Assembly: GCA_913057775.1 (NCBI GenBank)
Contig: CAJXOG010000007.1
Coordinates: forward strand, 62,001-126,000
Direction of reading: 5' to 3'
Origin: an uncultured Fodinibius sp.
GTDB lineage: Bacteria; Bacteroidota; Rhodothermia; Balneolales; Balneolaceae
DNA length: 64,000 nucleotides
Shown here: one piece after another, positions 31,710-46,983 of the stretch
How the letters are laid out: the number at the start of each line of letters is the position of its first letter
Numbering within the stretch: position 1 is the stretch's first letter
Made by a program: the position numbers and the translations under genes
Notes under the pieces: generated by a model
What the model was told of the DNA's origin: nothing
The model's database searches: none
Seen by the model: only the letters and a program-made list of their open reading frames with translations

Positions 31710-31850
31710 TACAGCCTTGGAAGATATGTACTTAGCTACCACTCATTGGCTTTTCAACTCTTCGCTAATCCATTTACTACAAGTTTAAAATTACGCACGC
31801 ATTTTATATTCAATTCGATTTGACTACAAGTCAAACAGAACTCCATTAGC

Positions 31851-32672
31851 ATGAATAATTATTACGTTTATGTTTATATAGATCCAAGAAACTTTGAAGA
31901 ATTTTATTTTGGTAAAGGCAAAGGATCCAGAAAAAATGCTCATTTAAATGATGATTCGGATTCTGAAAAAGCTAATCGGATTGCCTCAATAAAAGATGAA
32001 GGGCTTGAACCAATAATTCGAGTAATTGCTAAAGATCTCTCTAAAAAAGAAGCTTTGCTTATTGAAAAAACATTGCTCTGGAAGCTTGGTCGCAACCTTA
32101 CTAATATATCATCAGGGCATTTTAAAAATAAATTCAGACCACATAATACTCTACATTTAGAACTAAATAATTTCGATTACGAAAATGGTATTTATTACTA
32201 TGTAGTAGGTGAAGATAGTAAAAATGAAAAAAGAAACTGGGATGACTATAGAGAACTTGGGTTTATATCCGCTGGTCAAGGAGTTAAGTATAAAAACTAT
32301 ATAAAAGGGTTTAATCCTGGTGATATTTTCGCTGCATACCTAAGACAGAATAAACGCTCCGATGGTTTTGGCTATGTTGGAATCGGAAGAATAATTCAAG
32401 AAGCAAAGCCAGTACGTGAAGTGCAAATTGATGGGAAACCTCTTATAGATTACGATCTAAGAGGGAATATGTACAAGAATATCGAATCGGATGAACTTTG
32501 TGAATATGTTGCACTAGTTGAATGGATTAGAGCTGTAGAAAGCTCCGAAGCTAAATGGGAACCAGGGCTTTTTACCAATCAGAATATTCGTACTAAACTC
32601 GATAAGCAGACTGAAACTATAGAGTTCTTAGAAAATACATTCCAAGTTAATCTTAGAGAGCTTGTTGCGTAA
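31851..32672 (+). CDS. GIY-YIG nuclease fused to a PUA/EVE-like reader domain
   Basis: The 273-residue protein has two parts. Residues 1-95 form a LEM-3-like GIY-YIG nuclease: YYVYVYIDPRN, then FYFGKGKGSR with the catalytic arginine, and EALLIEKTLLW with the metal-binding glutamate. Residues 105-273 form an EVE/PUA-like domain: RNWDDYRELGFISAGQG, then FNPGDIFAAYLRQ, YVGIGRIIQEAKP and CEYVALVEW. Such domains bind modified bases in nucleic acids, so the fusion looks like a modification-dependent nuclease. The second domain is assigned by pattern only. It is followed by the first copy of the element's hairpin repeat. Confidence 0.7.
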   Translation: MNNYYVYVYIDPRNFEEFYFGKGKGSRKNAHLNDDSDSEKANRIASIKDEGLEPIIRVIAKDLSKKEALLIEKTLLWKLGRNLTNISSGHFKNKFRPHNTLHLELNNFDYENGIYYYVVGEDSKNEKRNWDDYRELGFISAGQGVKYKNYIKGFNPGDIFAAYLRQNKRSDGFGYVGIGRIIQEAKPVREVQIDGKPLIDYDLRGNMYKNIESDELCEYVALVEWIRAVESSEAKWEPGLFTNQNIRTKLDKQTETIEFLENTFQVNLRELVA

Positions 32673-32710
32673 AACACCTAACTAAGCAGAAAGTCCTTGC
32701 TTATCGTTAA

Positions 32711-32833
32711 TTCATCCATCCATACAAATAACATATACATTGGATAGATGGATAAGGAACAAGGCTAACTATACAAAAAATGCATTAAGGAGACGAACCT
32801 CTACATGAATTGCCAGCTTTTTATCTTTTTCCC
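32711..32833 (+). repeat. Island hairpin repeat, copy A
   Basis: The repeat starts with an inverted pair ATCCATC (32714-32720) and GATGGAT (32747-32753) around a spacer with ATATACATTGGAT. It continues with AAGGnG..ACCT (near 32787-32800) and ends in TGCCAG followed by a T-rich run. Copy B at 33731 aligns over its whole length. A and B are direct repeats flanking the EVE-like reader gene at 32889-33590. The end looks terminator-like. Confidence 0.65.
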
Positions 32834-32888
32834 TACAATCATTAGTGCACCCCTTATTATACAAGGTCTCTATACCACTTCTCAAATA

Positions 32889-33590
32889 CTATTCTGAAAG
32901 TTGATCTATCATCTGATCAATTGATCCATATTTGGCAAGCATTTTTTCGACATGATCTGTAGTTACACGTCTAAATCCTGGTACATCATAATTAGATTTA
33001 TATCCAAAGGCTTCAACCATTTTAACCCGGTCAATTTTGATAGGTTTAATTTCGTCCAAAACAAAAATCAACTCCCATGGTTTTCCAGGTGTTACATCCC
33101 ATAGGGCTTGACCAAAATCTTCATTTTCAAACTTATAAATTACTTTTCCAACAAAATTGAAGAATCCACTCCCAGTAATTTTAAACAATACATAGTCGTT
33201 TTTCTTCATAGTTCTGTAATATGCACGACTATTTTCATTCATTGCCCAACAGTGAAAACTTATATTTTCCCCAAGACTTTCTGACAAAGACTCAAATTGT
33301 TCTGAAGAGAGATATTTCTTTGCTGTTGAAAGATGTACACTACCTTTAATACTTGTTTTGATATTTTCTTCACTTGCTGGAGCAAGAAATATATCAAAAT
33401 CTAAAGCTTCACTATCCCTTTCTCGATTTTCATTAACTTCTGAACTTTTAAACATTTCGTCCTCCTCGTTATGTTCTTCATAAAAATCTAGTAGTCGTTC
33501 AATTACATTAGCTGGTGTATCAACTAGTGGTTCAGCATGCTTTTGTAATCTCAGAAAAACAGATTTCGGTATTCTTATTACCTTACTCAT
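32889..33590 (-). CDS. EVE/PUA-like reader protein with ribbon-helix-helix-like N-terminus
   Basis: This 233-residue protein has an N-terminal region (SKVIRIPKSVFLRLQKHA...) like the short DNA-binding leader of some restriction proteins, an acidic linker (43-62) and a C-terminal EVE-like reader domain: MNENSRAYYRTMKKNDYVLF, FFNFVGKVIYKFEN, QALWDVTPGKPWELIFVLDE and a final helix. No nuclease motif was seen. It is flanked by copies A and B of the hairpin repeat. It may supply recognition for a neighbouring nuclease, for example the divergent gene at 33921. Confidence 0.65.
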   Translation of the reverse strand: MSKVIRIPKSVFLRLQKHAEPLVDTPANVIERLLDFYEEHNEEDEMFKSSEVNENRERDSEALDFDIFLAPASEENIKTSIKGSVHLSTAKKYLSSEQFESLSESLGENISFHCWAMNENSRAYYRTMKKNDYVLFKITGSGFFNFVGKVIYKFENEDFGQALWDVTPGKPWELIFVLDEIKPIKIDRVKMVEAFGYKSNYDVPGFRRVTTDHVEKMLAKYGSIDQMIDQLSE

Positions 33591-33920
33591 AAACCCGGAA
33601 TTAAAGTAAATATTATTTGTTACAATGTAACACTATCTATTGATCTATGTCAATTTTATTTTGAAAGACGATGTCATAACACTTTTTAATGGGAAAATGT
33701 CAATCAGATAATTTTCATCAATGATCTAACTTATCCATCCATACAAACTGTATATACATTGGATAGATGTATGAGGATCTAAGCTTGTTTTACAATCAGC
33801 ACAATAAGGGGCATACCTGACCCCCAGCTGCCAGTTTTTGGCTTTTAAGCTTTCGTTCATTATTTAGAATCAAAATATTTTCTGTTCGCAGATTATTTGC
33901 TATTCATTTATGTACCTTAA
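33591..33920. other. Intergenic region carrying hairpin repeat copy B
   Basis: This 330-base divergent region separates the EVE-like reader gene (minus) from the PD-(D/E)XK gene (plus). It must hold both promoters. Apart from repeat copy B at 33731-33848, no gene or clear promoter box was recognised. Confidence 0.5.
33731..33848 (+). repeat. Island hairpin repeat, copy B
   Basis: The left arm ATCCATCCATACAAA (from 33733) and ATATACATTGGATAGATG match copy A nearly exactly. Conservation continues through AAGGGGCATACCT and TGCCAGTTTTTGGCTTTT at the 3' end. The middle of the element differs, but the short AGG/CCT pairing positions are kept, which suggests that structure is under selection. Confidence 0.65.
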
Positions 33921-34970
33921 ATGACGAAGAACCCTATGCCAAAAGACAAGATTTCTCGAATCTGCTGGAACACGGAAGGTTGGCGAAAGCCATCAGGTAA
34001 AGCTGGGAAAAGCAAAAATAAAGATTTATACGAATATCGTTTTGGATATGGTCATGAAGAATGGCTCTTAGATACTACGAAACTCATTGATGGTTGGCAC
34101 TACGCGTATTTGCAGTCGATCGGGCTACACCGCTCAAAATATATTGGAGAAAAATTCAATATATCATTGTATGCCATCAATAGTAAAACCAAGAGACGAT
34201 GGTGGATTGGACGAATCCTTGATGTTATAGTTACAACTCCCGAAGAATCCCAAGAGGTTTATGCTAATTATAGAAAAAGAGGATGGTTGAAAGAAATGGA
34301 GGAACAACTTCGCAATGTCAATGCAGATGTTAATGACTTTCGGGAAAATACAGTACCAGAAAACTTTGCCGTAATAAGGTTTCGACTTAAGTCGCTCGAC
34401 ATATTGGATACTCCTATGGAGTTTTCTAAAGATGATCCAGCTGTGTCCTCAAACTACTATAACCTTTTGAATAAAAAGCAATCACCTAAACTTCTTGCCA
34501 ATAAAAACCAGTTTGAATTCACCCCAGGTCACAAGCACAAGAAGGATTCAACAAAGTCGACTTATGAGGAACATTCTACCAAAGTTGATCTTGTTCATAA
34601 TCAGATCCAAACCAAAATATATCGACAACTTGCTAAAAAATATGGGGAGGGAAATGTAGGAACAGAACAAGATACAGGTTATGGTTCACAAATAGATCTT
34701 GTGGTAAAGAGCGATGAAGGCTTTATTTTTTATGAAATTAAAACATCGTACTCAGTTAGACTGTGTATTCGAAAGGGGTTATCTCAATTGCTTGAGTACG
34801 GTTACTATCCCAACACAGAAAATGCCGAAAAATTAATAATAGTTGCTCCTAAAAAAATAACAAAGGAAGCCATAAGATACATGAAATCATTAAGAAAGAA
34901 TTTTGACATTCCAGTTTATTATCAATGCTATAATCCTGAAACAGAAAGTTTAGAGAAAGTACTATATTAA
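33921..34970 (+). CDS. PD-(D/E)XK nuclease with unknown N-terminal reader-like domain
   Basis: The 349-residue protein has a C-terminal nuclease domain: GSQIDLVV (Asp259) and YEIKTSYS (Glu272, Lys274), with upstream helix VHNQIQTKIYRQLAKKY and downstream LSQLLEYGYYP. The N-terminal region (1-200) contains FGYGHEEWLLD and RRWWIGRILDVI, a pattern seen in several restriction-like proteins and resembling a modified-base reader; this is inference. The start ATG at 33921 is followed by a second ATG at codon 6. It diverges from the EVE-like reader gene. Confidence 0.75.
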   Translation: MTKNPMPKDKISRICWNTEGWRKPSGKAGKSKNKDLYEYRFGYGHEEWLLDTTKLIDGWHYAYLQSIGLHRSKYIGEKFNISLYAINSKTKRRWWIGRILDVIVTTPEESQEVYANYRKRGWLKEMEEQLRNVNADVNDFRENTVPENFAVIRFRLKSLDILDTPMEFSKDDPAVSSNYYNLLNKKQSPKLLANKNQFEFTPGHKHKKDSTKSTYEEHSTKVDLVHNQIQTKIYRQLAKKYGEGNVGTEQDTGYGSQIDLVVKSDEGFIFYEIKTSYSVRLCIRKGLSQLLEYGYYPNTENAEKLIIVAPKKITKEAIRYMKSLRKNFDIPVYYQCYNPETESLEKVLY

Positions 34971-35157
34971 GACGAAAGTATAACCAACTTTTCAAATGGG
35001 ATATGTTTTGCAAAGTTTTTACTACTCTTTGTGTATAATCTAATCTCCCATTAGGTGCTAATTCAACACTGAAGTTTTTGCTGGTTATGTCACCCCAAAT
35101 GTCGTTACAAAACTTAACGCACTCGAACTGCTAAACACCACATTAAAACCAGATAAA

Positions 35158-36126
35158 ATGCTTTGGAATAAAAAGAATAAATATTCAGAACTACCTTTCG
35201 ACAAAGAAGCAGAACTTGAAGATGCTGTTAATAAAGTAAAAGAAGTATTATTTGGGGAAAAAAGAATCTATCTCGATGACAAGAAAAAAATTGGCGAAAA
35301 GGGTAAAACCAATAATTTACCAGATGGTTACTTAATCGACTTAACTGATAGTCAAGATCCAAAAATTTTTGTAGTAGAAAATGACTTGGCAAGTCATCAA
35401 CACTTAAAACATATTGCGGTACAAATTCTCGAATTTTCTCTTTCCTTTGAATCCTCCAAAGTAAAAGTGAAGAATGTTATAAAAGAAATGCTACAGAGTA
35501 GACCGAAGGAATTAGAAAAGCTAAAAAGCTTTGCACAAAAAAATAAGTATGAAAATGTTGACTACCTATTGGAATCAATTATTCATAAAAAAGAATCCTT
35601 TAATGCCCTTCTCATCATTGATGAATTAAGTGATGAATTGGAAACAGTTCTCATTAGTAAATTTAAGTTTCCAGTAGAAGTAATCACTCTTAAGAGATAT
35701 CAGAACTCCAGTGATGAGATTTTATATGAGTTCGAACCCTTTTTATATGAAATAGATGAGGATACTAAAAAGATAGAGATATCAGATATTGATACAATTG
35801 TAGTACCAGCACATGAAGATACTTTCAAAGAAACCTTTGTAGAGCAAAACTGTTGGTATGCTATTCCCCTAAATTCGTCAATGATACCTAAAATAAAATA
35901 CATTGCAGCTTATCAAGTAGCCCCTATTTCCGCTATAACTCATATAGCCGAAGTCAAAAAGATTGAGCAATGGGAAGATACAAGTAAATATATTTTGCAT
36001 TTCAGCGAGCCGGCTAAAAAGATTGACGAAGTTAAATTACAATCAAGCAATAAGGCTCCTCAAGGTCCAAGATATTCGTCAAAAGAAAGGATATTTGAAG
36101 CAAATACTTTAGACGATTTGTTTTGA
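35158..36126 (+). CDS. Unknown protein with PD-(D/E)XK-like N-terminal motif
   Basis: At 322 residues, it has an N-terminal region that resembles a nuclease fold: LPDGYLID (Pro55, Asp56) followed by FVVENDL (Glu74, Asp76) and QILEF (Gln89). The usual lysine is replaced by aspartate. A middle section with IIDELSDELETVLISKFKFPVEVITL looks like a second alpha/beta unit. A C-terminal tail is basic. No family was recognised. A preceding intergenic gap of 187 bases carries no identified signal. Confidence 0.6.
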   Translation: MLWNKKNKYSELPFDKEAELEDAVNKVKEVLFGEKRIYLDDKKKIGEKGKTNNLPDGYLIDLTDSQDPKIFVVENDLASHQHLKHIAVQILEFSLSFESSKVKVKNVIKEMLQSRPKELEKLKSFAQKNKYENVDYLLESIIHKKESFNALLIIDELSDELETVLISKFKFPVEVITLKRYQNSSDEILYEFEPFLYEIDEDTKKIEISDIDTIVVPAHEDTFKETFVEQNCWYAIPLNSSMIPKIKYIAAYQVAPISAITHIAEVKKIEQWEDTSKYILHFSEPAKKIDEVKLQSSNKAPQGPRYSSKERIFEANTLDDLF

Positions 36127-36154
36127 TAATCTTAAGGGTTTCATCAATCCCCTA

Positions 36155-36391
36155 TTATTCAATAATTTCCCGTGAAAGTGGTTCCCATCTGTTAGCGATT
36201 TCTTTCAAGCTAAACCATTTAGAGTCAGTAGCATCAATGATATGAAATTCATCAGTATCGTGATAGTAGATTGTCACACTGCCACTTTCAAATTTGAATA
36301 AACTCCACATTACATCTCCACCTGAGTTGTAGAACAGGTCTTCCTTGGCATGATCAAACTTTTCTTTTAGTAATTTTTTATGCTTTTCCAT
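36155..36391 (-). CDS. Small conserved-looking protein, unknown
   Basis: A 78-residue soluble protein: an amphipathic charged N-terminal helix (KHKKLLKEKFDHAKEDLF), then beta strands with MWSLFKFESGSVTIYYHD and a C-terminal helix. Its start lies 7 bases after the stop of the next upstream small gene, so they form a two-gene unit. No family was recognised. Confidence 0.55.
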   Translation of the reverse strand: MEKHKKLLKEKFDHAKEDLFYNSGGDVMWSLFKFESGSVTIYYHDTDEFHIIDATDSKWFSLKEIANRWEPLSREIIE

Positions 36392-36398
36392 AATTGAT

Positions 36399-36602
36399 TC
36401 ATTTTTGGTTAGGTATTAATCTGTTCCGAATATCGTTTGCTCGGTTAAAAGCTTTTCTATCTTCCTTGTTATCCATCATGTGTTTATTATCATTTAGATG
36501 TTCTAAAGCCCTTTTCAGGTTATCTATTTCGCCATCATGTATCCAGTCTGCGAGCATGGGGAATCCAAGCTCTTCCAGTTCCAACAATAGGTTATCCATC
36601 AC
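36399..36602 (-). CDS. Small helical protein, unknown
   Basis: This 67-residue protein is almost wholly helical and charged (LLLELEELGFPMLADWIHDG, then KRALEHLNDNKHMMDNKED). It is the first gene of a short minus-strand pair and diverges from the Dcm gene; a perfect inverted repeat lies between them. It could be a regulator or an inhibitor, but no motif supports either. Confidence 0.55.
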   Translation of the reverse strand: MMDNLLLELEELGFPMLADWIHDGEIDNLKRALEHLNDNKHMMDNKEDRKAFNRANDIRNRLIPNQK

Positions 36603-36633
36603 AAAATCCTTTTATTTAAGCTGAAAAAATTGT

Positions 36634-36651
36634 GTGACAATACGTTGTCAC
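36634..36651. promoter_or_regulatory. Perfect palindrome in the divergent Dcm promoter region
   Basis: GTGACAA-TACG-TTGTCAC is a perfect 18-base inverted repeat with 7-base arms. It lies 31 bases upstream of the 36602 start and 120 bases upstream of dcm, where an operator for control of the methylase or the small genes would be expected. Confidence 0.5.
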
Positions 36652-36771
36652 TTATCGTGCTTACTATATATGCTATATTAGTAAAAGGAAGTCTTTTAAT
36701 TCCAAACAATAATTTATTAATTAGTTCAGCAACAGTTAATAAGCTATTCGCAACTTCTTTATTTTTATCAA

Positions 36772-37809
36772 ATGAAATTTATCGATCTCTTTGCGGGAAT
36801 AGGCGGTTTCAGACTTGCCTTGGAAAAATACGACCAAGAATGTGTGTTTTCTTCAGATATTGACAAGTTCGCTCGACAAACATATGAACACAATTTTGGT
36901 GAAAAACCCCACGGAGATATTACTGAAATTGAAACTGACGACATCCCCGATTTTGATATTTTGACGGCTGGGTTTCCCTGTCAACCATTCAGTTATGCAG
37001 GAAAAAATGAGGGATTTAAGGACAAAACAAGAGGTACTCTTTTCTTTGATATCCTTCGTGTTCTTGAGTCACACAAACCCAAAATGTTTTTACTTGAAAA
37101 TGTAAAGGGATTAAAATCTCATCGAAAAGGTAAAACATTAAAAATCATAGAAGAATCTCTCGAAGAACTGGGATACACAATTCATTGGAAAGTCCTTAAT
37201 AGCCATAATTTTGGTATACCGCAAAAAAGAGAACGATGGTTCTGTGTAGGTTTTGACAAACCACTGGCATTTAAATTCCCCAAAGGTGATAAACCAGGTA
37301 CAGTTCTTAGAGATATTGTAGACTTTGACGTTGACAACGAATCTTTAAGAATATCTGATCTTGATCTTAAAAGAATTGAAGATCATTTTAAATCAGACGA
37401 AGAGAGAGTTGAGCATGATAATAGTATGTATGACCCTGATACCAAAAAAGGTAAACATGGAGTTTATACATATCAGAAACCAGACGGTTCAATTAGATTC
37501 CACGTTGGAGATAAGTCAAAAACACAAATTCAAGAATCCTTCTATGCTTGTCTCGACACATATGCTCCAACTTTAATTGCTAATCGTGTACCCCAGTTGT
37601 GGGATTTAGAACGCAAGCTTTCAGTCAACGAATGCAAAAAACTTCAAGGCTTTCCCGAAAGCTTTGAATTCCCAGTTTCGAACCATCAAGCTTACAAACA
37701 GCTTGGTAACGCAGTTCCAGTACCAGTCGTAGAAGCAGTATTCGAAAACATGCTCAAATTCTATGAATTGGAAAAACCTAAATCGGAAGAGCTTGTTCTG
37801 GATCTCTAA
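36772..37809 (+). CDS. dcm: DNA (cytosine-5) methyltransferase
   Basis: The 345-residue protein has all core motifs of C5 methylases: FAGIGGFRLAL (motif I), TAGFPCQPFSYAG with the catalytic cysteine near residue 69 (motif IV), LLENVKG (motif VI), PQKRERWFCVGF (motif VIII) and QLGNAVPVPV (motif X). It protects host DNA by methylating the recognition sequence. It pairs with the convergent McrC- and McrB-like genes and with vsr. The stop codon overlaps that of the McrC-like gene. The recognition sequence cannot be read from the protein. Confidence 0.93.
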   Translation: MKFIDLFAGIGGFRLALEKYDQECVFSSDIDKFARQTYEHNFGEKPHGDITEIETDDIPDFDILTAGFPCQPFSYAGKNEGFKDKTRGTLFFDILRVLESHKPKMFLLENVKGLKSHRKGKTLKIIEESLEELGYTIHWKVLNSHNFGIPQKRERWFCVGFDKPLAFKFPKGDKPGTVLRDIVDFDVDNESLRISDLDLKRIEDHFKSDEERVEHDNSMYDPDTKKGKHGVYTYQKPDGSIRFHVGDKSKTQIQESFYACLDTYAPTLIANRVPQLWDLERKLSVNECKKLQGFPESFEFPVSNHQAYKQLGNAVPVPVVEAVFENMLKFYELEKPKSEELVLDL

Positions 37810-39092
37810 ATGTTATACTGAATTCCTTCTTTAATCGGCTGCTTGAGACTAAACCACTCCTCTTTGCTGGTATATACTTTCATACACTCAATTAGATCCA
37901 ATCCAAAGCAATATATAGGTTGATGAATATCTTCTCTCGATTCATTAATTGTTGGGTAAATAGTTGAAAGCAGCTTTATATTCGAATCATCGAGAGTATT
38001 CTTCAGCGAAGGGAAAAATAATAAATTGGCTAAACTTAAATTATTTTCTTTGGCAATCGTGTCCATCGATACTGCATAATAAAACTGTTTCCAAAGGTCC
38101 GCTTGTCCTGGTCTACTCTTCTTTAGATTATAGTTTTTTGCATCCACTACAAAAAGAGAATCATCATCTCTTACCAATATATCGGGAATTATAGTATTAG
38201 TATATTCTTCCCCACCTAATAGTTGAGAGTCTTTCCATTCAAAGCCCAATTTGCTATTCAATGTTTTCAACTCACTAACTTTAAACAAGTTCAAACAGAT
38301 ATCTTCCCAGACCAAATCAAAATTGGTCGATCCCAAATAAAATTCACTTGACGCTTGCTGACTTACTGAACCTGTTTTTAAATATCTTAAAAGAATTTTT
38401 AAAGTGTTTATCCTTTTATTGTCGTAAACGTTTCTTAGGAAGTTTTGTAGCACATATACCATTTTGCTACGGTGAAGATTTAGATTTATATAATCTGGAA
38501 CAGGTAAATCCAATAACGTTCCTATCTTTTCCCAACACTCATACACAATCAATTTGTGTATATCAGTTATTAATTTTTTTTCAGTTGTTTTCTTCTCCGC
38601 TAATACATCGCTATAAACAACGTTTTGTTGAGAGTGAATTGGGTTAATTTTATTTATTGTTCTTCCCCAATCGATCTTACCACTGTAGTTCTTACTTAAT
38701 TCCTTACTGTGAAAGTTCAAGTATCCATTCCTAACATAATCTATCAAAATTTTCTCTGCAGAAATACCATTAATTATATTGCTTCGAACTTGATCAGGCT
38801 CGACGGAAAGACTTTTTCGTTGTGAACTTGAAAAATATTTTTTGAAAACTTGGAATAAAAGTTGGGCAAGTTGAACCTTGGATAGTTGTTGGTTTTCGTA
38901 ATCAAGTGTTTTTGGAAGGCTTATAATAAGTTGGTCTGAGGTAATTACGAGACCTGCAAAATTAACTTTTAGACGAGCACCTGTTTTTTGTAACAATCCC
39001 TTTGAAACTAACTCCTCGACTTCTAAGGCAAATAAGTCATTAACTAAATTATGTTCTAAGTAGTCGCCACTATTTAAGACTTTAACACTCAT
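37806..39092 (-). CDS. McrC-like restriction subunit (LlaJI R2-type)
   Basis: This 428-residue protein has an N-terminal beta-rich region and a C-terminal PD-(D/E)XK nuclease: IIPDILVRDDDSLFVVDAKNYN, with Asp in IPDIL and Asp-x-Lys in VDAKNY. In LlaJI- and McrBC-like systems this protein supplies the nuclease and binds the McrB GTPase. It starts one base into the stop of the McrB-like gene, indicating translational coupling. It converges with dcm with overlapping stop codons. Confidence 0.83.
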   Translation of the reverse strand: MSVKVLNSGDYLEHNLVNDLFALEVEELVSKGLLQKTGARLKVNFAGLVITSDQLIISLPKTLDYENQQLSKVQLAQLLFQVFKKYFSSSQRKSLSVEPDQVRSNIINGISAEKILIDYVRNGYLNFHSKELSKNYSGKIDWGRTINKINPIHSQQNVVYSDVLAEKKTTEKKLITDIHKLIVYECWEKIGTLLDLPVPDYINLNLHRSKMVYVLQNFLRNVYDNKRINTLKILLRYLKTGSVSQQASSEFYLGSTNFDLVWEDICLNLFKVSELKTLNSKLGFEWKDSQLLGGEEYTNTIIPDILVRDDDSLFVVDAKNYNLKKSRPGQADLWKQFYYAVSMDTIAKENNLSLANLLFFPSLKNTLDDSNIKLLSTIYPTINESREDIHQPIYCFGLDLIECMKVYTSKEEWFSLKQPIKEGIQYNI

Positions 39093-40798
39093 CAGTTAGA
39101 AATTTCCCTTAAAGCCTTATCCAAATTATCTACAAAGATTGGCTTGTCCTTTTGGGAGTAAGTTGCCATAAGGTTTTCATAAGATGTTATAGTTGAAGAA
39201 AATAATTCGCTGGGGTTGTGAGGAACTACGTCTTCCCAAAGATATTGCAACACCTTAGTTTTGATTAAATTTTCATCTTTTAGATCTTGTACTGTAATAA
39301 AATACTGCCCCATTAATTTATCGTCTTTGACTCCTTGTATTGAAGCTATCTCTTGATTTAATATCTTAATAAATTTCAACCACTTTATTGTCCTACCCCT
39401 CCAAGAGATATCAATATCTGACAGCCTTTCCTCTTCATAATCAATAGGCAAATACTTCCAATTCCATCTTCTTTTAAATGCGGTATCTAATGTGAATACA
39501 TTTTGATCAGCTTGATTGATGGTCGCCCACAAGTGTAAATTATCAGGCAAATAAACACCTTCGTCCAATGACTTATCTGTAACACGTTTCAAGTATTTAA
39601 CTAAATCTAAATTACTTTGACTGGGGAATTCACTCTTACCGTCTCGCCCCCTATCCAGAATTTGAATTAAATCTCCGAAAATCCCGGCAATATCTCCCCT
39701 ATTTAACTCTTCGATAATTAATACAACAGGCTTGTCCGTATTTAACGCCAAGCTTAATGCATCTGTAAATGGTCCGATGCTATAACTGTAATCAATTACC
39801 GGCATCATCTCTTTACGTGTGTCATCCAACTCTAAATACTCAGAATCTCGAAGATATTTATCTTCTTCACCAATAGGTTGATATTTAGGATTAGGTCTAT
39901 AGCTACCAACAAAATCAGAGTAACTATATTCGGGATGAAAAGTGACTCTTTTTATATGCCTCTCATCTTCCACAAAAGATTTTGCCAAATGTTTCAAATA
40001 ATATGACTTACCAGTTCCAGTAGGTCCAAAAACGACTAAATTTTTGTAGATATTTTCACTCTCGGAATCTATAGTGACCGATTCCTGAAATCTATTCCCG
40101 GCAAAGTTGTATTTGCCGAACAAATCAAATGAAGACAAAAGTAAACACTTTTCAACTTGTTGACCCGAGTAAAGTGTTTGATAAAAAGGTGCCCCACTTA
40201 AACTTCCAGCCGCTTTTGACAATACAATATTTCCATCTTCAAAACCAATTGACCCATAATCCTCAGTATTTGCAGATACATCCAACGTATCTAATATCAG
40301 GCTTGATAGTTCGGTCGAAGAAGGTCTTCTCTCTTGTAAATCAAGTATTGAATTAGGATCACCAGATTCAACAAACCATTCTTCTTTCATCTTATCGGAA
40401 ATCCTAAAAGTTTCCACAAACTGATCTACCAAATCAGCTTCAGACATTTCTTCATTATTAAATGATACATTATGAGACATTACAACACTTACATCAAATA
40501 TGCTGAGGGGATCGTCGAGAAATTGATTCTTGCATTCACTTATCCATGATTCAGAAAAAATACAGTATCTGTCTTGATCTCTTGACAGAGAACGACTGGC
40601 ACCAAATGAAAATAAATCATCCAAAAGTTCCGATATTTTAATTTTCGAAAACTTATAAGATTTTGACGGTTTTATATCTGATTCATTTATCTTTAATACT
40701 CTAATCAAGGCAAGTAAACCGAAAAATTTATTTTCTGGATTTCGATCAACAATATTTGCCCATGACTGAGCAATTCGCTCTTTAGGAATATAACCCAT
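39092..40798 (-). CDS. McrB-like AAA+ GTPase restriction subunit
   Basis: At 568 residues it has an unrecognised N-terminal DNA-recognition region (1-240) and an AAA+ module. Walker A is GPTGTGKSYY, Walker B is VVLIIEELNRGD with the McrB-specific FGDLIQILDRG, and a sensor segment LWATINQADQNVF precedes DTAFKRRW. Proteins of this kind translocate DNA in rings and activate the McrC nuclease. With dcm it forms an LlaJI-like system, in which the restriction proteins target unmethylated or wrongly methylated sites. Confidence 0.87.
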   Translation of the reverse strand: MGYIPKERIAQSWANIVDRNPENKFFGLLALIRVLKINESDIKPSKSYKFSKIKISELLDDLFSFGASRSLSRDQDRYCIFSESWISECKNQFLDDPLSIFDVSVVMSHNVSFNNEEMSEADLVDQFVETFRISDKMKEEWFVESGDPNSILDLQERRPSSTELSSLILDTLDVSANTEDYGSIGFEDGNIVLSKAAGSLSGAPFYQTLYSGQQVEKCLLLSSFDLFGKYNFAGNRFQESVTIDSESENIYKNLVVFGPTGTGKSYYLKHLAKSFVEDERHIKRVTFHPEYSYSDFVGSYRPNPKYQPIGEEDKYLRDSEYLELDDTRKEMMPVIDYSYSIGPFTDALSLALNTDKPVVLIIEELNRGDIAGIFGDLIQILDRGRDGKSEFPSQSNLDLVKYLKRVTDKSLDEGVYLPDNLHLWATINQADQNVFTLDTAFKRRWNWKYLPIDYEEERLSDIDISWRGRTIKWLKFIKILNQEIASIQGVKDDKLMGQYFITVQDLKDENLIKTKVLQYLWEDVVPHNPSELFSSTITSYENLMATYSQKDKPIFVDNLDKALREISN

Positions 40799-40914
40799 GA
40801 ACTTTTCTGATTATTTTAAGCTGTATCTTGATATAGACTCTATCTTAAATTTCACTCAATTCTAATCAGAATTACGTAAAATCCCTAATTGAAGTAAACA
40901 CCCTTCATTTCATT

Positions 40915-41364
40915 ATGGCTGATATTGTATCTAAAGAAAAAAGAAGTGAGATAATGGCGAGTGTTGGGAATAAAGATACCGAACCCGAGCTAATCATCCG
41001 AAAGGGTATCCATGGTAAAGGTTATAGATATTCCTTAAACGACAACAGTTTACCCGGAAGACCCGATATAAAAATGCCTAAGTATAACGCAATCATATTT
41101 ATTCATGGTTGTTTCTGGCACGGTCACGAGAAATGCGGAAGCCAAATACCAAAAAGCAATAAAGAGTTTTGGAGAAATAAGATTGAAAGGAATAAAGAAA
41201 GAGATCGAGAGAATACAGAAAAGCTACTCGGATTAGGCTGGAGAGTATTGACTATTTGGGAATGTGCCATAAAAGATAAAAATAGCTTACCACATGATAA
41301 ACTTTTGGAGAAGGTGACAGGTTGGATAGAGTCTGACAGTAAGCGAGAAACAATATCATCCTAA
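40915..41364 (+). CDS. vsr: Very-short-patch mismatch endonuclease
   Basis: The 149-residue protein has the Vsr pattern: SEIMASVGNKDTEPE, then YSLNDNSLPGRPDI with the metal-binding aspartate, and IFIHGCFWHGHE with the zinc and catalytic histidines. Vsr nicks DNA at T:G mismatches left by deamination of 5-methylcytosine made by the partner Dcm enzyme. It diverges from the McrB-like gene across 116 bases that contain a 9-base inverted pair (TTCTGATTA near 40805 and TAATCAGAA near 40864). Confidence 0.92.
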   Translation: MADIVSKEKRSEIMASVGNKDTEPELIIRKGIHGKGYRYSLNDNSLPGRPDIKMPKYNAIIFIHGCFWHGHEKCGSQIPKSNKEFWRNKIERNKERDRENTEKLLGLGWRVLTIWECAIKDKNSLPHDKLLEKVTGWIESDSKRETISS

Positions 41365-41399
41365 AAAGTCTTTAGTTTCATTTCAAAATACCATGGTAA

Positions 41400-41903
41400 C
41401 TAAAAGACAATATTTTTTGCCCTTAATGAGATATAAGCCCCTTTTGTAAGTATTATGTGGTCATTGACATTAATACCCATCATTTCTCCACATTCCTTAA
41501 TTCTTCGAGTCAATGTTTTATCTGCTTTTGAAGCTTCCAGATTACCACTGGGATGGTTGTGGGCTAATATGATGGAAGTAGCATTGGCTAAGAGAGCTAC
41601 CTGGAAAATTGATGCAGGATCTACGATAGTAGCAGTAGCTCCGCCAGAACTAATTTTACTCCACCCCAGGCATTTTTTCGCATTGTTCAGGAGTAACACT
41701 ACAAACTCCTCCCGAAGCTGTATTGTGCCATCATCCCAGATGTCACGAAATACCTTTACTGCCTCATCCGGTGAGGTTATAGCTGGGCACTCTTCAAGAG
41801 CGATAGTTGACTCATACTTAAGGGATATCTCCGCTAAGGAGGGCGATTTAAGAACGTTTTTCTCAGTTCGGTCTGCTTGTTGGTTATATGTTGATTCATT
41901 CAT
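41400..41903 (-). CDS. radC: RadC-like JAB-domain protein
   Basis: At 167 residues this is the short form of RadC found in mobile elements, without the N-terminal helix-hairpin-helix. The JAMM metal site is visible as HNHPSGNLEASKAD. Such proteins are common on Bacteroidota integrative elements; the molecular role is unknown and the RadC repair label is historical. A 7-base-arm hairpin lies just upstream of its start. Confidence 0.85.
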   Translation of the reverse strand: MNESTYNQQADRTEKNVLKSPSLAEISLKYESTIALEECPAITSPDEAVKVFRDIWDDGTIQLREEFVVLLLNNAKKCLGWSKISSGGATATIVDPASIFQVALLANATSIILAHNHPSGNLEASKADKTLTRRIKECGEMMGINVNDHIILTKGAYISLRAKNIVF

Positions 41904-41919
41904 GGTGATATTAATTTTG

Positions 41920-41940
41920 AGGGGAGCATAACACTCCCCT
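41920..41940 (-). terminator. Hairpin between the 65-residue gene and radC
   Basis: AGGGGAG (41920-41926) and CTCCCCT (41934-41940) form a perfect 7-bp stem with a 7-base loop. No T run follows on the minus strand, so it may be an attenuator or a structured leader for radC rather than a full terminator. Confidence 0.5.
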
Positions 41941-41973
41941 ACAGTTATAATTGGTTATCGAATTGTTCATTAG

Positions 41974-42171
41974 TCACACAGCAAAAGGCGAGTGAGATTG
42001 GGCATATTCATCCAGATCGAAGTCTACTTTCCTGAAATCGATGCAGTAGGTTTGCTCTCCGGCTTTTAGCCAGATGAATCCAACCTTGGCATCAATCCGG
42101 GTGATAGAATCCGTTGATATATCCCTGAACTCAAGTGCCTGATACAGTGCTTCCACGAGTTCTTGAAACAT
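41974..42171 (-). CDS. Small protein, unknown
   Basis: This 65-residue soluble protein has an N-terminal helix (FQELVEALYQALEFRD) and then beta strands (VGFIWLKAGEQTYCIDF). It is the second gene after the 82-residue protein in the minus-strand backbone of the element. It resembles no family that I recognise; element context supports it as real. Confidence 0.55.
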   Translation of the reverse strand: MFQELVEALYQALEFRDISTDSITRIDAKVGFIWLKAGEQTYCIDFRKVDFDLDEYAQSHSPFAV

Positions 42172-42200
42172 TGGCTTTGAATTTAGATTGGCGTTTTAGC

Positions 42201-42449
42201 TCAGACTTGAATAGAGAAGTAGTAGTGATAGTATCCCTTGTTGCCTATGATGTATACGAGATCTAAGTCTGGAGATATTTTCACATTGACTACTTCCAGC
42301 TCCTGTCCAACCATATAGCTGTCCACTGATCGAATGACCTTGACCGTAAACGGGCAATACAGGCGTATCAGCCCTCTGCTTTTGGTGTGGACAAGAAGAC
42401 TATCCGAGCTGGTGTACTTGTTGATGTCATCGATAAGATTACTTCCCAT
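42201..42449 (-). CDS. Small protein, unknown
   Basis: An 82-residue, mostly beta-strand protein (LIRLYCPFTVKVIRSVDSY, YIIGNKGYYHYYFSIQV). It begins 9 bases after the stop of the DUF3871-like gene, suggesting cotranscription. No motif was recognised. Confidence 0.55.
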   Translation of the reverse strand: MGSNLIDDINKYTSSDSLLVHTKSRGLIRLYCPFTVKVIRSVDSYMVGQELEVVNVKISPDLDLVYIIGNKGYYHYYFSIQV

Positions 42450-42458
42450 AACCAGCGA

Positions 42459-43439
42459 TCAGTTTAGAAACCAGAATTCGGTATTCTCCTCCAAGGCATT
42501 GGCTATTTGAGAGGTAAACTGACAGGCATTCACTCCCCGGTCCAGAAAGGTATCGATGTAAGACGACTTATTAGCTTCCGTCAAGAGGTTATACATATCC
42601 CACAGGTTAATACTGCCGTCCGAAGCACTCCCAAAATTTTCATTTCGATAGTACTCTTTGGCTACCGTTGAAATCTGCGTGTCGTTAAGCTGAAACTCCG
42701 GCAGGTTCTTCTTTTTGCTGGACGGCAAATACTGATACAGCCTTGCCCTTCCGACAAGCTGAGCAAACTGCTCTTCGGTAAGCTGATAGTCTTGATACTT
42801 GTTCAGCAAATGGGATTGATTGGAATAGCTGAATCCATTGACAAGATTGTAGATCCTGCCTTCCAGATCACGGGGATTGTCCACCTCGATCGTCTCCGAA
42901 AACCCGTCAGTCCATATGCATAAGTTTGTACACACCTTGTTCACAAAGCCGATAAAGACCTTGAAATGCTCTGGCGTACCTTTTCTGCGATTGAGGTTGT
43001 CCATGTTGTAAGGCTTGACTCCTCCCACCGTTAGGCTTAAATCATTCCCCTTTATTTGCTGAGTAATGGAGGAGATTTCAACAACAAACGCCATTCGCTC
43101 GTAGTAAAGGGTTTTCTCGTGTTCCTCCAGTTGGTCGGCAGGCTTGCCTTTGGCATCCGGTATTCTTCCCTTCCTTGGATGACTTACCCGAATGTCGGGT
43201 TCCCTGATCGTCTCTCTGGGAAAGGCGTGGTGGACAATACCTACCGTTCGGTCTATAAATTCTCCATGGGAAATAGCCGGCTCGTTATCCTGGGAAAACA
43301 CGGGTATAATGTGGTTCTCCTCAAGCTCCTTCAAATCGATAGGTTCGGTATTAGCTTCGATAAACGGAGACTGGTTTTCAGCCTCCTCTATAACACTTAC
43401 CTCATTTTCGTTTGGTTGTTGAGTTTCTATTGTATTCAT
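42459..43439 (-). CDS. DUF3871 family protein
   Basis: This 326-residue protein has an acidic, disordered N-terminus (1-50) and a body with HGEFIDRTVGIVHHAF, PDIRVSHPRKGRIPDAKGKP and the strong CTNLCIWTDGFSE segment. These are features of DUF3871, a family found on Bacteroidota integrative elements, often near RadC. Function is unknown; proximity to small genes of unknown role suggests a part in element maintenance. A terminator lies just upstream of its start. Confidence 0.8.
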   Translation of the reverse strand: MNTIETQQPNENEVSVIEEAENQSPFIEANTEPIDLKELEENHIIPVFSQDNEPAISHGEFIDRTVGIVHHAFPRETIREPDIRVSHPRKGRIPDAKGKPADQLEEHEKTLYYERMAFVVEISSITQQIKGNDLSLTVGGVKPYNMDNLNRRKGTPEHFKVFIGFVNKVCTNLCIWTDGFSETIEVDNPRDLEGRIYNLVNGFSYSNQSHLLNKYQDYQLTEEQFAQLVGRARLYQYLPSSKKKNLPEFQLNDTQISTVAKEYYRNENFGSASDGSINLWDMYNLLTEANKSSYIDTFLDRGVNACQFTSQIANALEENTEFWFLN

Positions 43440-43465
43440 TGTTGGAAGTTTTTTTGGTTAGAAAT

Positions 43466-43493
43466 AAAAAAAGGCGGTCCTGCTAAGACCACC
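43466..43493 (-). terminator. Rho-independent terminator
   Basis: On the minus strand GGTGGTC-TTAGCAG-GACCGCC forms a 7-bp stem (one G-T pair), followed by seven T. It ends transcription from the 61-residue gene at 43525-43710 before the DUF3871-like gene. Confidence 0.8.
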
Positions 43494-43524
43494 TCTGAGT
43501 TCATTGTTAAAAAATCGCTTGGTA

Positions 43525-43710
43525 TTACATGAGCTGGGTTACATAGTCTGGTTCCAGCCCAAAGTATTCTTCGCAGATATAGTATGCGGAGTCTAAATCG
43601 CCCTGCTGTAGATACCTGTGAAACTGCTCTGAAGCCTCCGCTATAAGAGCTTCGGCTTCTTCTTCGCTCATATCATCACGTTCTGTTAGTACCTGTTTTA
43701 TGGATTTCAT
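43525..43710 (-). CDS. Small acidic protein, unknown
   Basis: A 61-residue, highly acidic, helical protein with EEEAEALIAEASEQFHRYL and a tail CEEYFGLEPDYV. It lies between two terminators, so it probably has its own transcript. No family was recognised. The acidic composition would fit a DNA mimic, but nothing else supports that. Confidence 0.55.
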   Translation of the reverse strand: MKSIKQVLTERDDMSEEEAEALIAEASEQFHRYLQQGDLDSAYYICEEYFGLEPDYVTQLM

Positions 43711-43719
43711 AATGACTGG

Positions 43720-43750
43720 AAAAAGAAAAGGCAGGACTTCTCATCCTGCC
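43720..43750 (-). terminator. Rho-independent terminator
   Basis: GGCAGGA (43730-43736) and TCCTGCC (43744-43750) form a 7-bp perfect stem; on the minus strand it is followed by TTTTCTTTTT. It ends the transcript of the 116-residue gene at 43778-44128. Confidence 0.8.
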
Positions 43751-43777
43751 TCTAATCAGTTTGTGTTATAATGGAAG

Positions 43778-44128
43778 TTACGCTGGCACCTCGTTTTGCT
43801 GATTCTCGAAGACCTCTTCCTCCATCGATACCGGAGTCGGATTGTATTCCCACGTAAAATCAAGAATAATCTTCTCCCCAGTTTCCGGAATTTCGTATTC
43901 GTATTTATCACAGGGAACACGGTCGATACTTCCCTGTAGCTTCGTACCGATCAGCTCTTCACACTTGGCGTCGTCAAACGTGGATGGAATCGATGTTTCA
44001 CGAGCCGTAGCATAATACTGACCTGTTTCCGTGGATTTTACCATTTCGACTTCGCCTTGGATGCGAAGTGCGTTAAACGGTTCTTCATCTTCGTTCATAA
44101 CTTCTTTATATCCTATTACTTGTACCAT
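43778..44128 (-). CDS. Conserved element protein of unknown function
   Basis: At 116 residues this is a beta-rich soluble protein (ALRIQGEVEMVKSTETGQYY, LQGSIDRVPCDKYEYEIP) with an acidic C-terminal tail. Similar proteins are found near DUF3871 genes on related elements, to the best of my recollection. An 11-base inverted repeat begins at its start codon. No function is known. Confidence 0.6.
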   Translation of the reverse strand: MVQVIGYKEVMNEDEEPFNALRIQGEVEMVKSTETGQYYATARETSIPSTFDDAKCEELIGTKLQGSIDRVPCDKYEYEIPETGEKIILDFTWEYNPTPVSMEEEVFENQQNEVPA

Positions 44129-44190
44129 TTGTCTTGGGATTTAATTTGAATTAAATATTTGGCGGGCATTGCTTGAATACCCAAGACAAA
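44128..44190. promoter_or_regulatory. 11-base inverted repeat at the start of the 116-residue gene
   Basis: TTTGTCTTGGG (44128-44138) and CCCAAGACAAA (44180-44190) are perfect inverted copies 41 bases apart. They overlap the start codon of the gene at 43778-44128 and could form a leader hairpin that hides it. Confidence 0.45.
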
Positions 44191-44306
44191 GAGGGGGTAG
44201 CTTAACAAGGTAGGTTGGACGATCTCATAAAGAGACCACTGAAAATATTATATATTATTTTTTTATGAAATTGACTACATCTCCAGTATAGAATTAGCAA
44301 GGTTTT

Positions 44307-45107
44307 CTAAATAACTCTGCCATTTTTTACTTCAACCGTATTTAGAAATCCAAGTTTATATCTTCCATCAGGTACATATGTGGTTAAATTTCTATCTCTA
44401 TAAACATTGTCACCATCTCTATATCCATGAACTACTGATTGAAAAATATATATAATATCGCCTGACTTGGTTTCGTATTTCTTAGGCTTTTTAATGTCAA
44501 CCAGAGTATTATCCTTGACACTTATTTGATACCCTGTTTTGGCGAGAGTATAGCTTGCCTTCTTTATTGACTTATCTTCAATTTGGATCTTGTTGCCCAA
44601 GTTCAATCTCATTTTTTTCTCAGGTACATTCCTTGCATTCTTGATTAAAATACTCCTTCCATCCTCAAGCTTGTATTTTTTTGCATTCGACTTTGAAGAA
44701 CCCTGAACATTCCTAGATGTATTGTTATAAAAAAGCTTCTGAAAATAACCAACAATATCTTGATTAGGTAATCTCTGCTGATGAGCCAAAGCAATAAAAT
44801 TGTGGGAAGTCCCATCTAACTTGAGAAGAACGACACATTCGTCGATAAAAATGATGTTACATAATAGCTTAACATCATCTGTTTCTATTAATAAGGATTC
44901 ATCAACTTCTAGATATTTCCAACTGCCCATCTCTACTTTTCCACTATCAGACAAAATTAGGTCGCCACTAGATTGAAATATCATCTTCTGCAAATCAAAC
45001 ATATCGTTAACCATTATCCATGGTTGATCTAGCAATGTCGACTTAAGCTCCCATGATTTCTTAAATCCTTTAACTTTTTCTGCTACTCTCTTTAGATGCT
45101 CATTCAT
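44307..45107 (-). CDS. Protein of unknown function
   Basis: This 266-residue soluble protein has an N-terminal helix and then alternating beta strands with several basic linkers (KLFYNNTSRNVQGSSKSNAK). A C-terminal block (NVYRDRNLTTYVPDGRYKLG) is rich in aromatic and charged residues. No motif or family was recognised. It lies alone between backbone genes and the 509-base gap that carries two hairpin repeats. Confidence 0.6.
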   Translation of the reverse strand: MNEHLKRVAEKVKGFKKSWELKSTLLDQPWIMVNDMFDLQKMIFQSSGDLILSDSGKVEMGSWKYLEVDESLLIETDDVKLLCNIIFIDECVVLLKLDGTSHNFIALAHQQRLPNQDIVGYFQKLFYNNTSRNVQGSSKSNAKKYKLEDGRSILIKNARNVPEKKMRLNLGNKIQIEDKSIKKASYTLAKTGYQISVKDNTLVDIKKPKKYETKSGDIIYIFQSVVHGYRDGDNVYRDRNLTTYVPDGRYKLGFLNTVEVKNGRVI

Positions 45108-45290
45108 ATCCTAATAATCTGTAAATTAAAATTGATTGGCTAGAAATATTAACTAGTTCACAAAAAACTTAATTAAGAGAACAAAGTTTATAAATATTAT
45201 TTGTGTTATATAATTCAGATGTATCTACAATTGAAATAGCTTAAGTTACCCCAAATATGAGGATATAAAAGCACACTCACGCTCTCACTT

Positions 45291-45410
45291 ATATCCATGC
45301 ATCCAAACCCCATGTACATTAGATGGATGGATAAATACAGTTATCCTATAAAATGCTACTCATATATGAATCTCTAACATAATTGACAACTGAATTCTTG
45401 TCGACTTTAT
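45291..45410 (+). repeat. Island hairpin repeat, copy C (divergent)
   Basis: ATCCATGCATCCAAA (from 45293) and TACATTAGATGGATGGAT (to 45333) match the arms and the TACATT of copies A and B. Similarity beyond the hairpin is weak. Confidence 0.5.
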
Positions 45411-45563
45411 AAAACTACTAGTCTCACACTAATTAATTAAATATATACTATAGTTTGCCATTGTTTTGACCTACATATTAAAGTGCAATCACTATGCACA
45501 GTAAAAATAGATGGAGCCCAGCCTCTAAATTGGTCAGTAAACCAAAGGTAGAGAGACTGAGCA

Positions 45564-45609
45564 TATCTATCCATCTATGTATTTTGCCTGCTTGTTGGAT
45601 GGATAGATA
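45564..45609 (-). repeat. Island hairpin repeat, copy D (inverted)
   Basis: The arms are perfect inverted 12-mers: TATCTATCCATC (45564-45575) and GATGGATAGATA (45598-45609). Read on the minus strand, the spacer with ATACAT next to the right arm matches copies A and B. It lies 8 bases downstream of the stop of the RepA-like gene. Confidence 0.6.
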
Positions 45610-45616
45610 GCTCCAT

Positions 45617-46573
45617 CTACCCCTCCCAATTATCCCTGATCCAATTACCGACCGTTGAACGCCCTCCTTCAAAACCTTCCTCTTGAAGAAGATTATAAAT
45701 AGCCGTTATCGATCTCTCAGGATCTTCCTCCTTAAAGTCTAGGCAACGGTCAAGCCATTCATCTTGTAACGTACTGGTTCGAGCTCCAAGGTCGTCGAAA
45801 TGCACCCGTCGCCCCGTATTTTCAAACCATAACCGTTCTGTATCAAAGTTCAATACATAACTTCGGTTCTTTTCCTCATCGGCAATATAGTTACCTTTGA
45901 CAATGCACAGGTGCCTAATGCTGGAATCACTGGGATCTCTCCTAAGTTCAGCCAACATTCTCATTTTTGCTTCAAAAGCCTGGGAACCGAGCGAATTATG
46001 CTTCGAAGGTCGATTCCGTTCCTTGCCCTTACCAACATGATTTAACATGATAAAGAGCGTACCATACCTTTGAGAAAGGTTCTTAAACCTGTTGAGCAAA
46101 GGTCTAATGCGGCTTGCCATATTCATGTCTCCGGTAAAAATATCCGTAAAACAGTCAATTATCACACAGTCAGGACTTTGCTCCTCCAACAACTCTTCAA
46201 GCTTTTCAAGCAGATTGTAAGAGTCTGTAATGAATGTGAGGTTATCCCAGCAGTCTTCAATCTCGGAGGGATTTTCTAACTGTCTCCTTACTAAGAATGC
46301 CAGATCTTGCATAACATCCTCTGTGCTTACATATACGACCTTATTAGACCTAGTATTTAATGGAAAGCCAATAAACTCATCGTCTCCCCTTGCAATTGAC
46401 AATGACAATTGCCTTAGTAACGTACTTTTTGCCACATCCGAGGAACCGGTTAATCCTACTAGCCCCGTTTCCTGTATAAGTCCCTCCACAAGCATCGGAA
46501 TTTCCGTTACCTCCAGTTCCAGGAGATCTTTTGCCGTACAAACTGAGTCCATTTCTTCATTAGTAACTAACAT
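45617..46573 (-). CDS. RepA-like AAA ATPase
   Basis: The 318-residue protein has an N-terminal AAA/RecA-like ATPase of the RepA type: LTGSSDVAKSTLLRQLSLSIARG near residue 36, Walker B DCVIIDCFTDIF near 130 and a LFIMLNHVGKGKERNRPSKH segment. The usual glycine before the Walker A lysine is alanine (DVAKST). The C-terminal region has a basic GGRSTVGNWIRDNW helix-turn-helix-like end. Such ATPases load helicases at element or plasmid origins. It follows the MerR-like gene by 2 bases. Confidence 0.78.
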   Translation of the reverse strand: MLVTNEEMDSVCTAKDLLELEVTEIPMLVEGLIQETGLVGLTGSSDVAKSTLLRQLSLSIARGDDEFIGFPLNTRSNKVVYVSTEDVMQDLAFLVRRQLENPSEIEDCWDNLTFITDSYNLLEKLEELLEEQSPDCVIIDCFTDIFTGDMNMASRIRPLLNRFKNLSQRYGTLFIMLNHVGKGKERNRPSKHNSLGSQAFEAKMRMLAELRRDPSDSSIRHLCIVKGNYIADEEKNRSYVLNFDTERLWFENTGRRVHFDDLGARTSTLQDEWLDRCLDFKEEDPERSITAIYNLLQEEGFEGGRSTVGNWIRDNWEG

Positions 46574-46575
46574 AA

Positions 46576-46863
46576 CTACACCTCCTCAGCTTTGATGTAG
46601 TTATCATTAAAAAAGGCATCCAAGTCTTCCGCCTTGAAATATATTTTACGCCCATTCTTGACATAAGAAATCTGACCTGAATCCCTCAGGTACTGTAAAT
46701 GTCTTCTGGAGACATTCAGTTTTTTACAGGTTTCCTCTATCGTATAATAGTCCTTGCGATTGGTTTTATTGATAATTTGGGGAAGCCTCTCAGCTACAGC
46801 TTTCTCAACTGCATGCCGGACAACTTCTTCTAATTCTTGTTTTGAAGGAATGTATGTTTTCAT
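46576..46863 (-). CDS. MerR-like helix-turn-helix (excisionase-type) protein
   Basis: This 95-residue protein has an N-terminal helix and a C-terminal HTH_17 domain: YYTIEETCKKLNVSRRHLQYLRDSGQISYVKNGRKIYF. This is the usual form of excisionases and replication-helper proteins in Bacteroidota elements. It is translationally linked to the RepA-like ATPase (2-base gap). Three 11-base repeats lie upstream of its start and may be its binding sites. Confidence 0.83.
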   Translation of the reverse strand: MKTYIPSKQELEEVVRHAVEKAVAERLPQIINKTNRKDYYTIEETCKKLNVSRRHLQYLRDSGQISYVKNGRKIYFKAEDLDAFFNDNYIKAEEV

Positions 46864-46939
46864 AATTACCTACTATTTCAGTTAAAAATTATCTTCAACA
46901 GTAGGTTAATGGAGAAAGAGCATACCCTCGATTGGAACC

Positions 46940-46972
46940 TTATTGAAAGGTTATTGAAAACTTATTGAAATG
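46940..46972. repeat. Three 11-bp iteron-like direct repeats
   Basis: TTATTGAA occurs at 46940-46947, 46951-46958 and 46962-46969, exactly 11 bases apart, about one helical turn. They lie between the gene at 46984-47688 and the MerR-like gene. The phasing suggests binding of one protein on one face of the helix. Confidence 0.65.
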
Positions 46973-46983
46973 TTTGTAGTGCA

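Follow-up and report, generated by a model that had tools for sequence, protein, structure and literature searches.

Decayed attC sites in a tRNA-Ser defence island of Fodinibius and a candidate miniature hairpin element inserted in two of them

In integrons, attC sites follow the plan R''-L''...L'-R' and alternate with cassette genes in the order gene-attC-gene-attC, while groups of at least two attC sites without a local integron integrase (IntI) are known as clusters of attC sites lacking integrases (CALIN; IntegronFinder, PMC9024848). Salinibacter ruber M1 is the only member of Bacteroidota with a reported complete integron, if Chlorobi and Ignavibacteriae of the wider group are set aside (PMC9024848). 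Among the insertion sequences (IS), some IS1111 members are directed to attC, use a seeker RNA that is encoded 3' of the transposase gene tnp, and can move cargo between the IS ends (PMC11187229); this attC group includes ISKpn4, ISPst6, and ISPa25 (Tetu and Holmes 2008 and Post and Hall 2009, as cited in PMC11187229). IS1111 also inserts into repetitive extragenic palindromes (REP) and miniature inverted-repeat transposable elements (MITE), for example in Coxiella (PMC5896051). The primary concern of this study is a hairpin repeat, with copies A, B, and C and a look-alike D, in a 64,000-nucleotide stretch of an uncultured Fodinibius genome (contig CAJXOG010000007.1, positions 62,001 to 126,000; hereafter the window). 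The reading preferred here, with a probability of roughly two in three, takes A and B as decayed attC sites of the Fodinibius type, which form a CALIN-like array with a third site, F, in a tRNA-Ser defence island and were both later hit by a miniature hairpin element.

The attC identity of the three sites comes from a model (R3) built from 21 sites of other loci and containing no window sequence. R3 matches the window at B (33790-33913, 42.0 bits, E 1.9e-9), at F (38.2 bits, E 2.1e-8), and at A (32771-32875, 22.6 bits, E 4e-4), while the next best match has an E value of 0.41. Compared with the attC sites of the genus, A and B each have a left half with P 0.0003 and a right half with P 0.0007. 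The original prediction, made from the sequence alone, had recorded that A and B share a downstream block, AAGGnG..ACCT..TGCCAG followed by a T-rich run, and had stated that the pattern does not fit attC. The shared block is real and corresponds to the left half of the genus attC, GCATTAAGGGGACGCACCTCGCC..TTGCCA..TTTTT (P<=0.0004 at each site), with right halves also present; the statement about attC is thus correct for the hairpin itself but wrong for the sequences that flank it. A recombination site had been offered as one possible identity, and for A and B this is what was found, in the form of the very kind of site that had been excluded beforehand.

The layout of each site can be followed box by box. 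In site A, the R'' box ACCTAAC at about 32678 is followed by an insertion that runs to about 32780, L'' (GCATTAAGG) starts at 32781, and the right half (GTGCACCCCTTATTATACAAGGTCTCTATACC) ends at about 32878; the left boundary of the insertion is uncertain, and its outer 20 or so nucleotides are perhaps deleted. In site B, R'' (GTCATAAC) lies at about 33672-33679, the insertion extends from 33680 to about 33799, where L'' (GCACAATAAGG) starts, and the right half reaches about 33915. Site F, overlooked by the original prediction, has R'' GTATAAC, R' GTCGTTACAA, and the end GTTACAA, and the GTATAAC-type R'' is shared by intact sites of the genus. The core boxes sought were RYYYAAC for R'' and GTTRRRY for R'; A has the former as ACCTAAC, but R' has lost its GTT in both A and B.

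In cassettes, the attC site sits just behind the stop codon of the gene. Site F starts 8 nt past the stop of the open reading frame (ORF) 33921-34970, A starts about 5 nt past a stop codon, and A, B, and F all lie on one strand. On sequence grounds, the segment from 31.85 to 35.11 kb is read as three successive decayed cassettes, consisting of 31851-32672 with A, 32889-33590 with B, and 33921-34970 with F. Since there are three attC sites and the only IntI above cut-off in the source genome is on another contig (G000:C16:27245-28186), the segment is classed as a decayed, CALIN-like cassette array without a local integrase. That integrase adjoins at least four attC cassettes (locus L184), after which its contig ends. 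The product of 31851-32672 is a putative defence protein. Searches of Pfam and PADLOC gave no family for the products of 32889-33590 and 33921-34970, and relatives yielded matches to the 233-aa protein that were too weak to be of use; the genes of the array, including those for the 233-aa and 349-aa proteins, probably have a defensive function. A candidate fourth attC, badly decayed and with an R3 score of 6.8 bits, follows the ORF 31137-31709 at 31737-31810 (GGCTTTTCAACTCTTCGCTAATCC...ACGCACGCATTTTATATTC).

Integron integrases are widespread among the sampled genomes of the genus. Of 12 genus genomes, 11 encode an integrase that passes the TIGR02249 cut-off, compared to none of 14 controls, and the arrays beside these integrases carry intact attC sites of 126-132 bp. 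Consecutive cassettes in these arrays start with a TTRRRY that complements the R'' box of its own cassette. The stems of the attC sites show covariation, with 24 two-sided changes compared to 7.9 in shuffles. The window array resembles integron arrays and CALIN in the plan of its sites, the order of genes and attC, and the presence of at least two attC sites away from IntI; it differs in that the sites are decayed, two of the three carry an insertion, and the whole lies in a tRNA-borne defence island of a Bacteroidota genus. None of the papers searched mentions both Fodinibius and integrons. The occurrence of attC, CALIN, and IS1111-attC elements across Fodinibius is therefore new, although all three kinds of element were already known.

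The second part of the reading concerns the insertion, of about 100-120 nt, that divides the attC of A and B between R'' and L''. In four other genomes of the genus (G010, G005, G009, and G011), the same position, between CCTAAC and CCGCGCATTAAG, holds IS elements of 1386-1394 bp, and it also holds forms with internal deletions, of 697 and 387 nt; a representative is at L142 3751-5144, with same-site elements in L140, L147, L148, and L149. These elements encode a DEDD-type transposase (PF01548/PF02371) read against the cassette direction, have 263 nt of non-coding sequence 3' of tnp, and carry a 13-bp subterminal inverted repeat (AGTCCTCACCTAG/AGTCCTCACTTAG). They fit the IS1111 group because of the transposase, the non-coding region 3' of tnp, the 13-bp subterminal repeats, and the fixed attC position; the transposase type (IS110/IS1111), that region, the repeats, and the single position and orientation in attC are also what they share with ISKpn4, ISPst6, and ISPa25. 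A 192-nt repeat of the sister genomes, considered as a long attC, was rejected when comparison with empty attC sites resolved it into the IS left end plus the downstream non-coding region.

The left 36 or so nucleotides of the IS are matched by a hairpin insertion of Fodinibius roseus, E1 (32/36 identical), and by B, with P<=0.001; the spacing between this IS end and the hairpin is the same in both. Alignment of the flanks showed that A and B are alike far past the hairpin, upstream as well as downstream, the upstream likeness in B spanning 33681-33715; this upstream likeness had also been overlooked. A model of the upstream block plus hairpin (R2), on which B scores 95.8 bits by construction, matched the block about 30 more times across the genus genomes, mostly just 3' of genes behind ...CCTAAC or ...TATAAC. 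The hairpin of B and of E1 is assigned to an insertion that separates the R'' box of attC from L'', and that of A probably belongs to one as well. The favoured identity of the insertion is a miniature, non-autonomous element, related to the IS1111-like element and carrying an internal hairpin. Unlike the described IS1111-attC elements, the window copies lack a transposase and have the internal hairpin; no transposase of the IS1111-like group is present in the source genome, and its copies therefore look fossil. The suggestion that the repeat is MITE-like is thus supported in that the hairpin insertion in attC has an IS1111-like left end, though its right end is not demonstrable, as set out below. 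Compared with bacterial MITEs and REP palindromes such as QMITE2 of Coxiella, an IS1111 target (PMC5896051), the Fodinibius element is likewise small and non-coding, with a palindromic core, few copies, and a link to an IS1111-type element; it differs in lying inside attC, in having a left end in common with the IS, and in its very low copy number (3-4 in the source genome, up to 4 in F. roseus). The literature searched contained no description of a hairpin-bearing miniature form inside attC, and this form is considered new.

Table 1. Positions of the hairpins, attC sites, cassette genes, and island features (window coordinates unless a locus is named)
Feature	Position	Strand	Description and basis
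Hairpin of A	32714..32755	+	42-nt unit; core pattern match, folding
Hairpin of B	33733..33774	+	42-nt unit; core pattern match; folds no better than shuffles
Hairpin C	45293..45334	+	Third palindrome copy; any attC on its 3' side reduced to a trace
Hairpin D	45568..45608	-	Perfect stem of 11 bp immediately 3' of the AAA_25 gene; candidate member only
Site A	32678..32878	+	Decayed attC with hairpin insertion; R3 match, half-site P values
Site B	33673..33917	+	Decayed attC with hairpin insertion; R3 match, half-site P values
Site F	34978..35110	+	Third decayed attC, no insertion or hairpin; R3 match
Left end of insertion in B (ACTTTTTAATGGGAAAATGTCAATCAGATAATTTTCATC)	33681..33718	+	Homologous to the IS1111-like left end; alignment P 0.001
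Cassette gene upstream of attC A	31851..32672	+	GIY-YIG protein, PDC-S11-like; Pfam PF22945, PADLOC PDC-S11 4e-35
Cassette gene flanked by attC A and B	32889..33590	-	On the strand opposite to the array; no family
Cassette gene flanked by attC B and F	33921..34970	+	No family
Host island	26199..49359	.	Integrated at tRNA-Ser 3' end; 27-bp direct repeats, tyrosine integrase
Island tyrosine integrase	47850-49190		
Chitinophagales hairpin	L192 1724-1763	-	ATCCATC hairpin
Chitinophagales hairpin	L194 3649-3688	+	ATCCATC hairpin

The hairpin was predicted to form a family of four copies, and three of these stand. A, B, and C are copies of a 42-nt imperfect palindrome, with B and C 86% and 81% identical to A, in which ATCCATCCATACAA is followed by a 12-nt loop ending in TACA, conserved in all three, and then by TTGGATAGATGGAT; the stem has 14 positions. 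The core pattern CAAAN7TACATTRGATRGATG, with up to 3 mismatches, has exactly three matches in the window compared to 0.15 expected from shuffles. As single-stranded DNA, A (z -2.4) and C (z -2.1) fold better than shuffles, while B does not (z -1.2). The stem of D, perfect over 11 bp, is built of similar words, but its 22-nt loop is different, and on the hairpin model D scores 24 bits compared to 62-69 bits for A, B, and C, from which the model was built. Because of this low score and a nearly equal score on the opposite strand (22 bits), D is regarded as a loose look-alike and is not counted. It lies within a larger inverted repeat, TAGATGGAGC ... GCTCCATCTA (45500-45620), just 3' of the AAA_25 gene, and may represent a terminator or a structure resembling an origin.

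Further copies of the repeat, on whose existence the original prediction had partly depended, do occur in other genomes. Within the family, the hairpin model (R1) found one more full copy, in F. roseus (NZ_FQUS01000044.1, contig C57; 32.3 bits, E 1.3e-3), where partial copies are also present: the 34 nt preceding the hairpin form a block that is repeated near three other sites, and a downstream block is repeated once. This contig also has an attC of 40 bits (L079 5026-5145) and is judged from its sequence to be a second, putatively cassette-seeded gene cluster. It (1-12781) carries genes for an OLD-like ATPase and for PLD-like, UvrD-like, and HerA-like proteins, its ends form a 94-bp inverted repeat, and several decayed remnants of hairpins and attC are present. 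A Chitinophagales metagenome-assembled genome (JAHDFD010000013.1) has two ATCCATC hairpins, of 55 and 38 bits and 10 kb apart; one has the loop ATATACATT in common with A and B, and the contig carries DUF3871, which is also encoded in the window island, and an AAA_24 gene. The strict hairpin pattern matched the source genome alone among 97 relatives, and the plasmid collection had no match. Several other candidates were rejected: 35 matches of a loose hairpin pattern in viral contigs were all judged to be coding coincidences without a left arm, R1 matches in four genomes (G117, G027, G316, and G415) look like coding sequence without conserved blocks, and the short block pattern TCAAGCARAMAGT was uninformative over the genus, with about 29 matches per genome compared to about 20 for the reversed control.

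Several observations weigh against the reading of the insertion as a relative of the IS1111-like element. The IS left end is weak in A (P 0.035), where the outer 20 or so nucleotides are missing or diverged, and neither A, B, nor E1 has a significant match to the IS right end (P 0.2-0.4). At hairpin C no IS end is detectable, the left end not being found there by alignment, and attC survives as a trace at most (P 0.005-0.007); the two Chitinophagales hairpins have no attC, IS ends, or upstream block. In the Fodinibius IS, 29 and 18 nt separate the subterminal repeats from the attC junctions, compared to 7 and 3 in canonical IS1111, and the longest match between seeker RNA and target is 8 nt, with a chance mean of 6.2 and none significant. 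Since hairpin C and the Chitinophagales hairpins stand outside the attC and IS setting, the palindrome may also occur on its own, perhaps as an independent repeat.

The main alternative is built on that observation. The hairpin would be an independent small repeat, REP- or MITE-like, that was in attC first, and the IS1111-like element would later have targeted the hairpin-bearing site, much as IS1111 has been reported to insert into REP/MITE palindromes (PMC5896051). However, full-length IS copies occupy plain attC sites without a hairpin, so the hairpin is not needed as a target, and the equal spacing at which the IS left end is joined to the hairpin in B and E1 also argues against it. This alternative is considered unlikely, though it is the strongest of those compared.

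Considerably less probable is the idea that the repeats serve the island itself in recombination or transfer, as sites for its tyrosine integrase or a replication module. C and D adjoin the AAA_25/HTH module, and the Chitinophagales hairpin contig has DUF3871 and an AAA gene. However, the island has its own att sites in the form of the 27-bp tRNA repeats, which are unlike the hairpin, the F. roseus copies are on a contig without genes of the AAA_25/HTH/DUF3871 type, and A and B have an identity of their own as attC. A transcribed structured RNA, either a small RNA or a cis-regulatory element, had also been proposed, and the conserved hairpin with its conserved TACA loop would suit such a role. 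Among six copies of the hairpin, none of 12 pairs changed on both sides and 7 of 12 never vary, the flanking blocks are attC, and an Rfam search of the whole window gave a single match type, tRNA-Ser, with no family for repeats A-D. The gene contexts also disagree with one cis-acting RNA, as the genes around A converge, those around B diverge, and C precedes a gene, and the proposal is regarded as very improbable. An Rfam search of four genus loci gave two sub-threshold Thr-leader matches. Equally improbable for A, B, and C are ordinary rho-independent terminators or a chance likeness of ATCC-rich palindromes, since three copies with a conserved loop contrast with the 0.15 expected, their AT-rich, weak stems have no T-tracts, and B lies between divergent gene starts, although stems made of ATCC/GGAT words are what this explanation predicts and it may apply to D, which has a perfect stem a few bases past a stop codon.

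The source genome, of 3.1 Mb, shares its genus with F. roseus DSM 21986 (Balneolaceae). The host island is joined to the 3' end of tRNA-Ser (49333-49421), and a 27-bp direct repeat of this end, GCGGAGAGGGAGGGATTCGAACCCTCG, at 26199-26225 and 49333-49359 bounds the integrative island of 23 kb, which is rich in defence or restriction genes. These include a LlaJI-type restriction system at 36772-41364, consisting of an m5C methylase, the LlaJI endonuclease, a McrB-like AAA ATPase, and Vsr, and further defence-like genes (Mrr, HNH, and GIY-YIG) between 27.9 and 32.7 kb.

If A and B are decayed attC sites hit by a miniature element, the following order of events may be proposed. IntI would have placed cassettes in the island, at least one of them with a putative defence gene (GIY-YIG, PDC-S11-like). 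An IS1111-type transposase acting in trans with a guide (seeker) RNA would have put the miniature element into attC A and B, at the exact position used by its autonomous relatives. An insert at this point, between R'' and L'', would be expected to hinder IntI recombination of the folded bottom strand; by parting R'' from the rest of attC, it would have frozen the cassettes and stopped their shuffling, and mutation would afterwards have worn the sites down. A broader proposal, held tentatively and at somewhat less than even odds, is that the miniature hairpin element uses an RNA-guided IS1111-type transposase in trans to enter attC, and is a non-autonomous attC parasite that is carried along as cassettes seed defence islands of Bacteroidota.

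Under the preferred reading, a tRNA-borne defence island would have been supplied by integron cassettes and by the parasites of their attC sites, in a phylum from which complete integrons are rarely reported (PMC9024848), and nearly all sampled Fodinibius genomes have an integron integrase. The decayed sites date and delimit single-gene cassettes, and the attC-targeting IS with its putative miniature partner would provide a natural test bed for target choice by RNA-guided IS1111-type elements.

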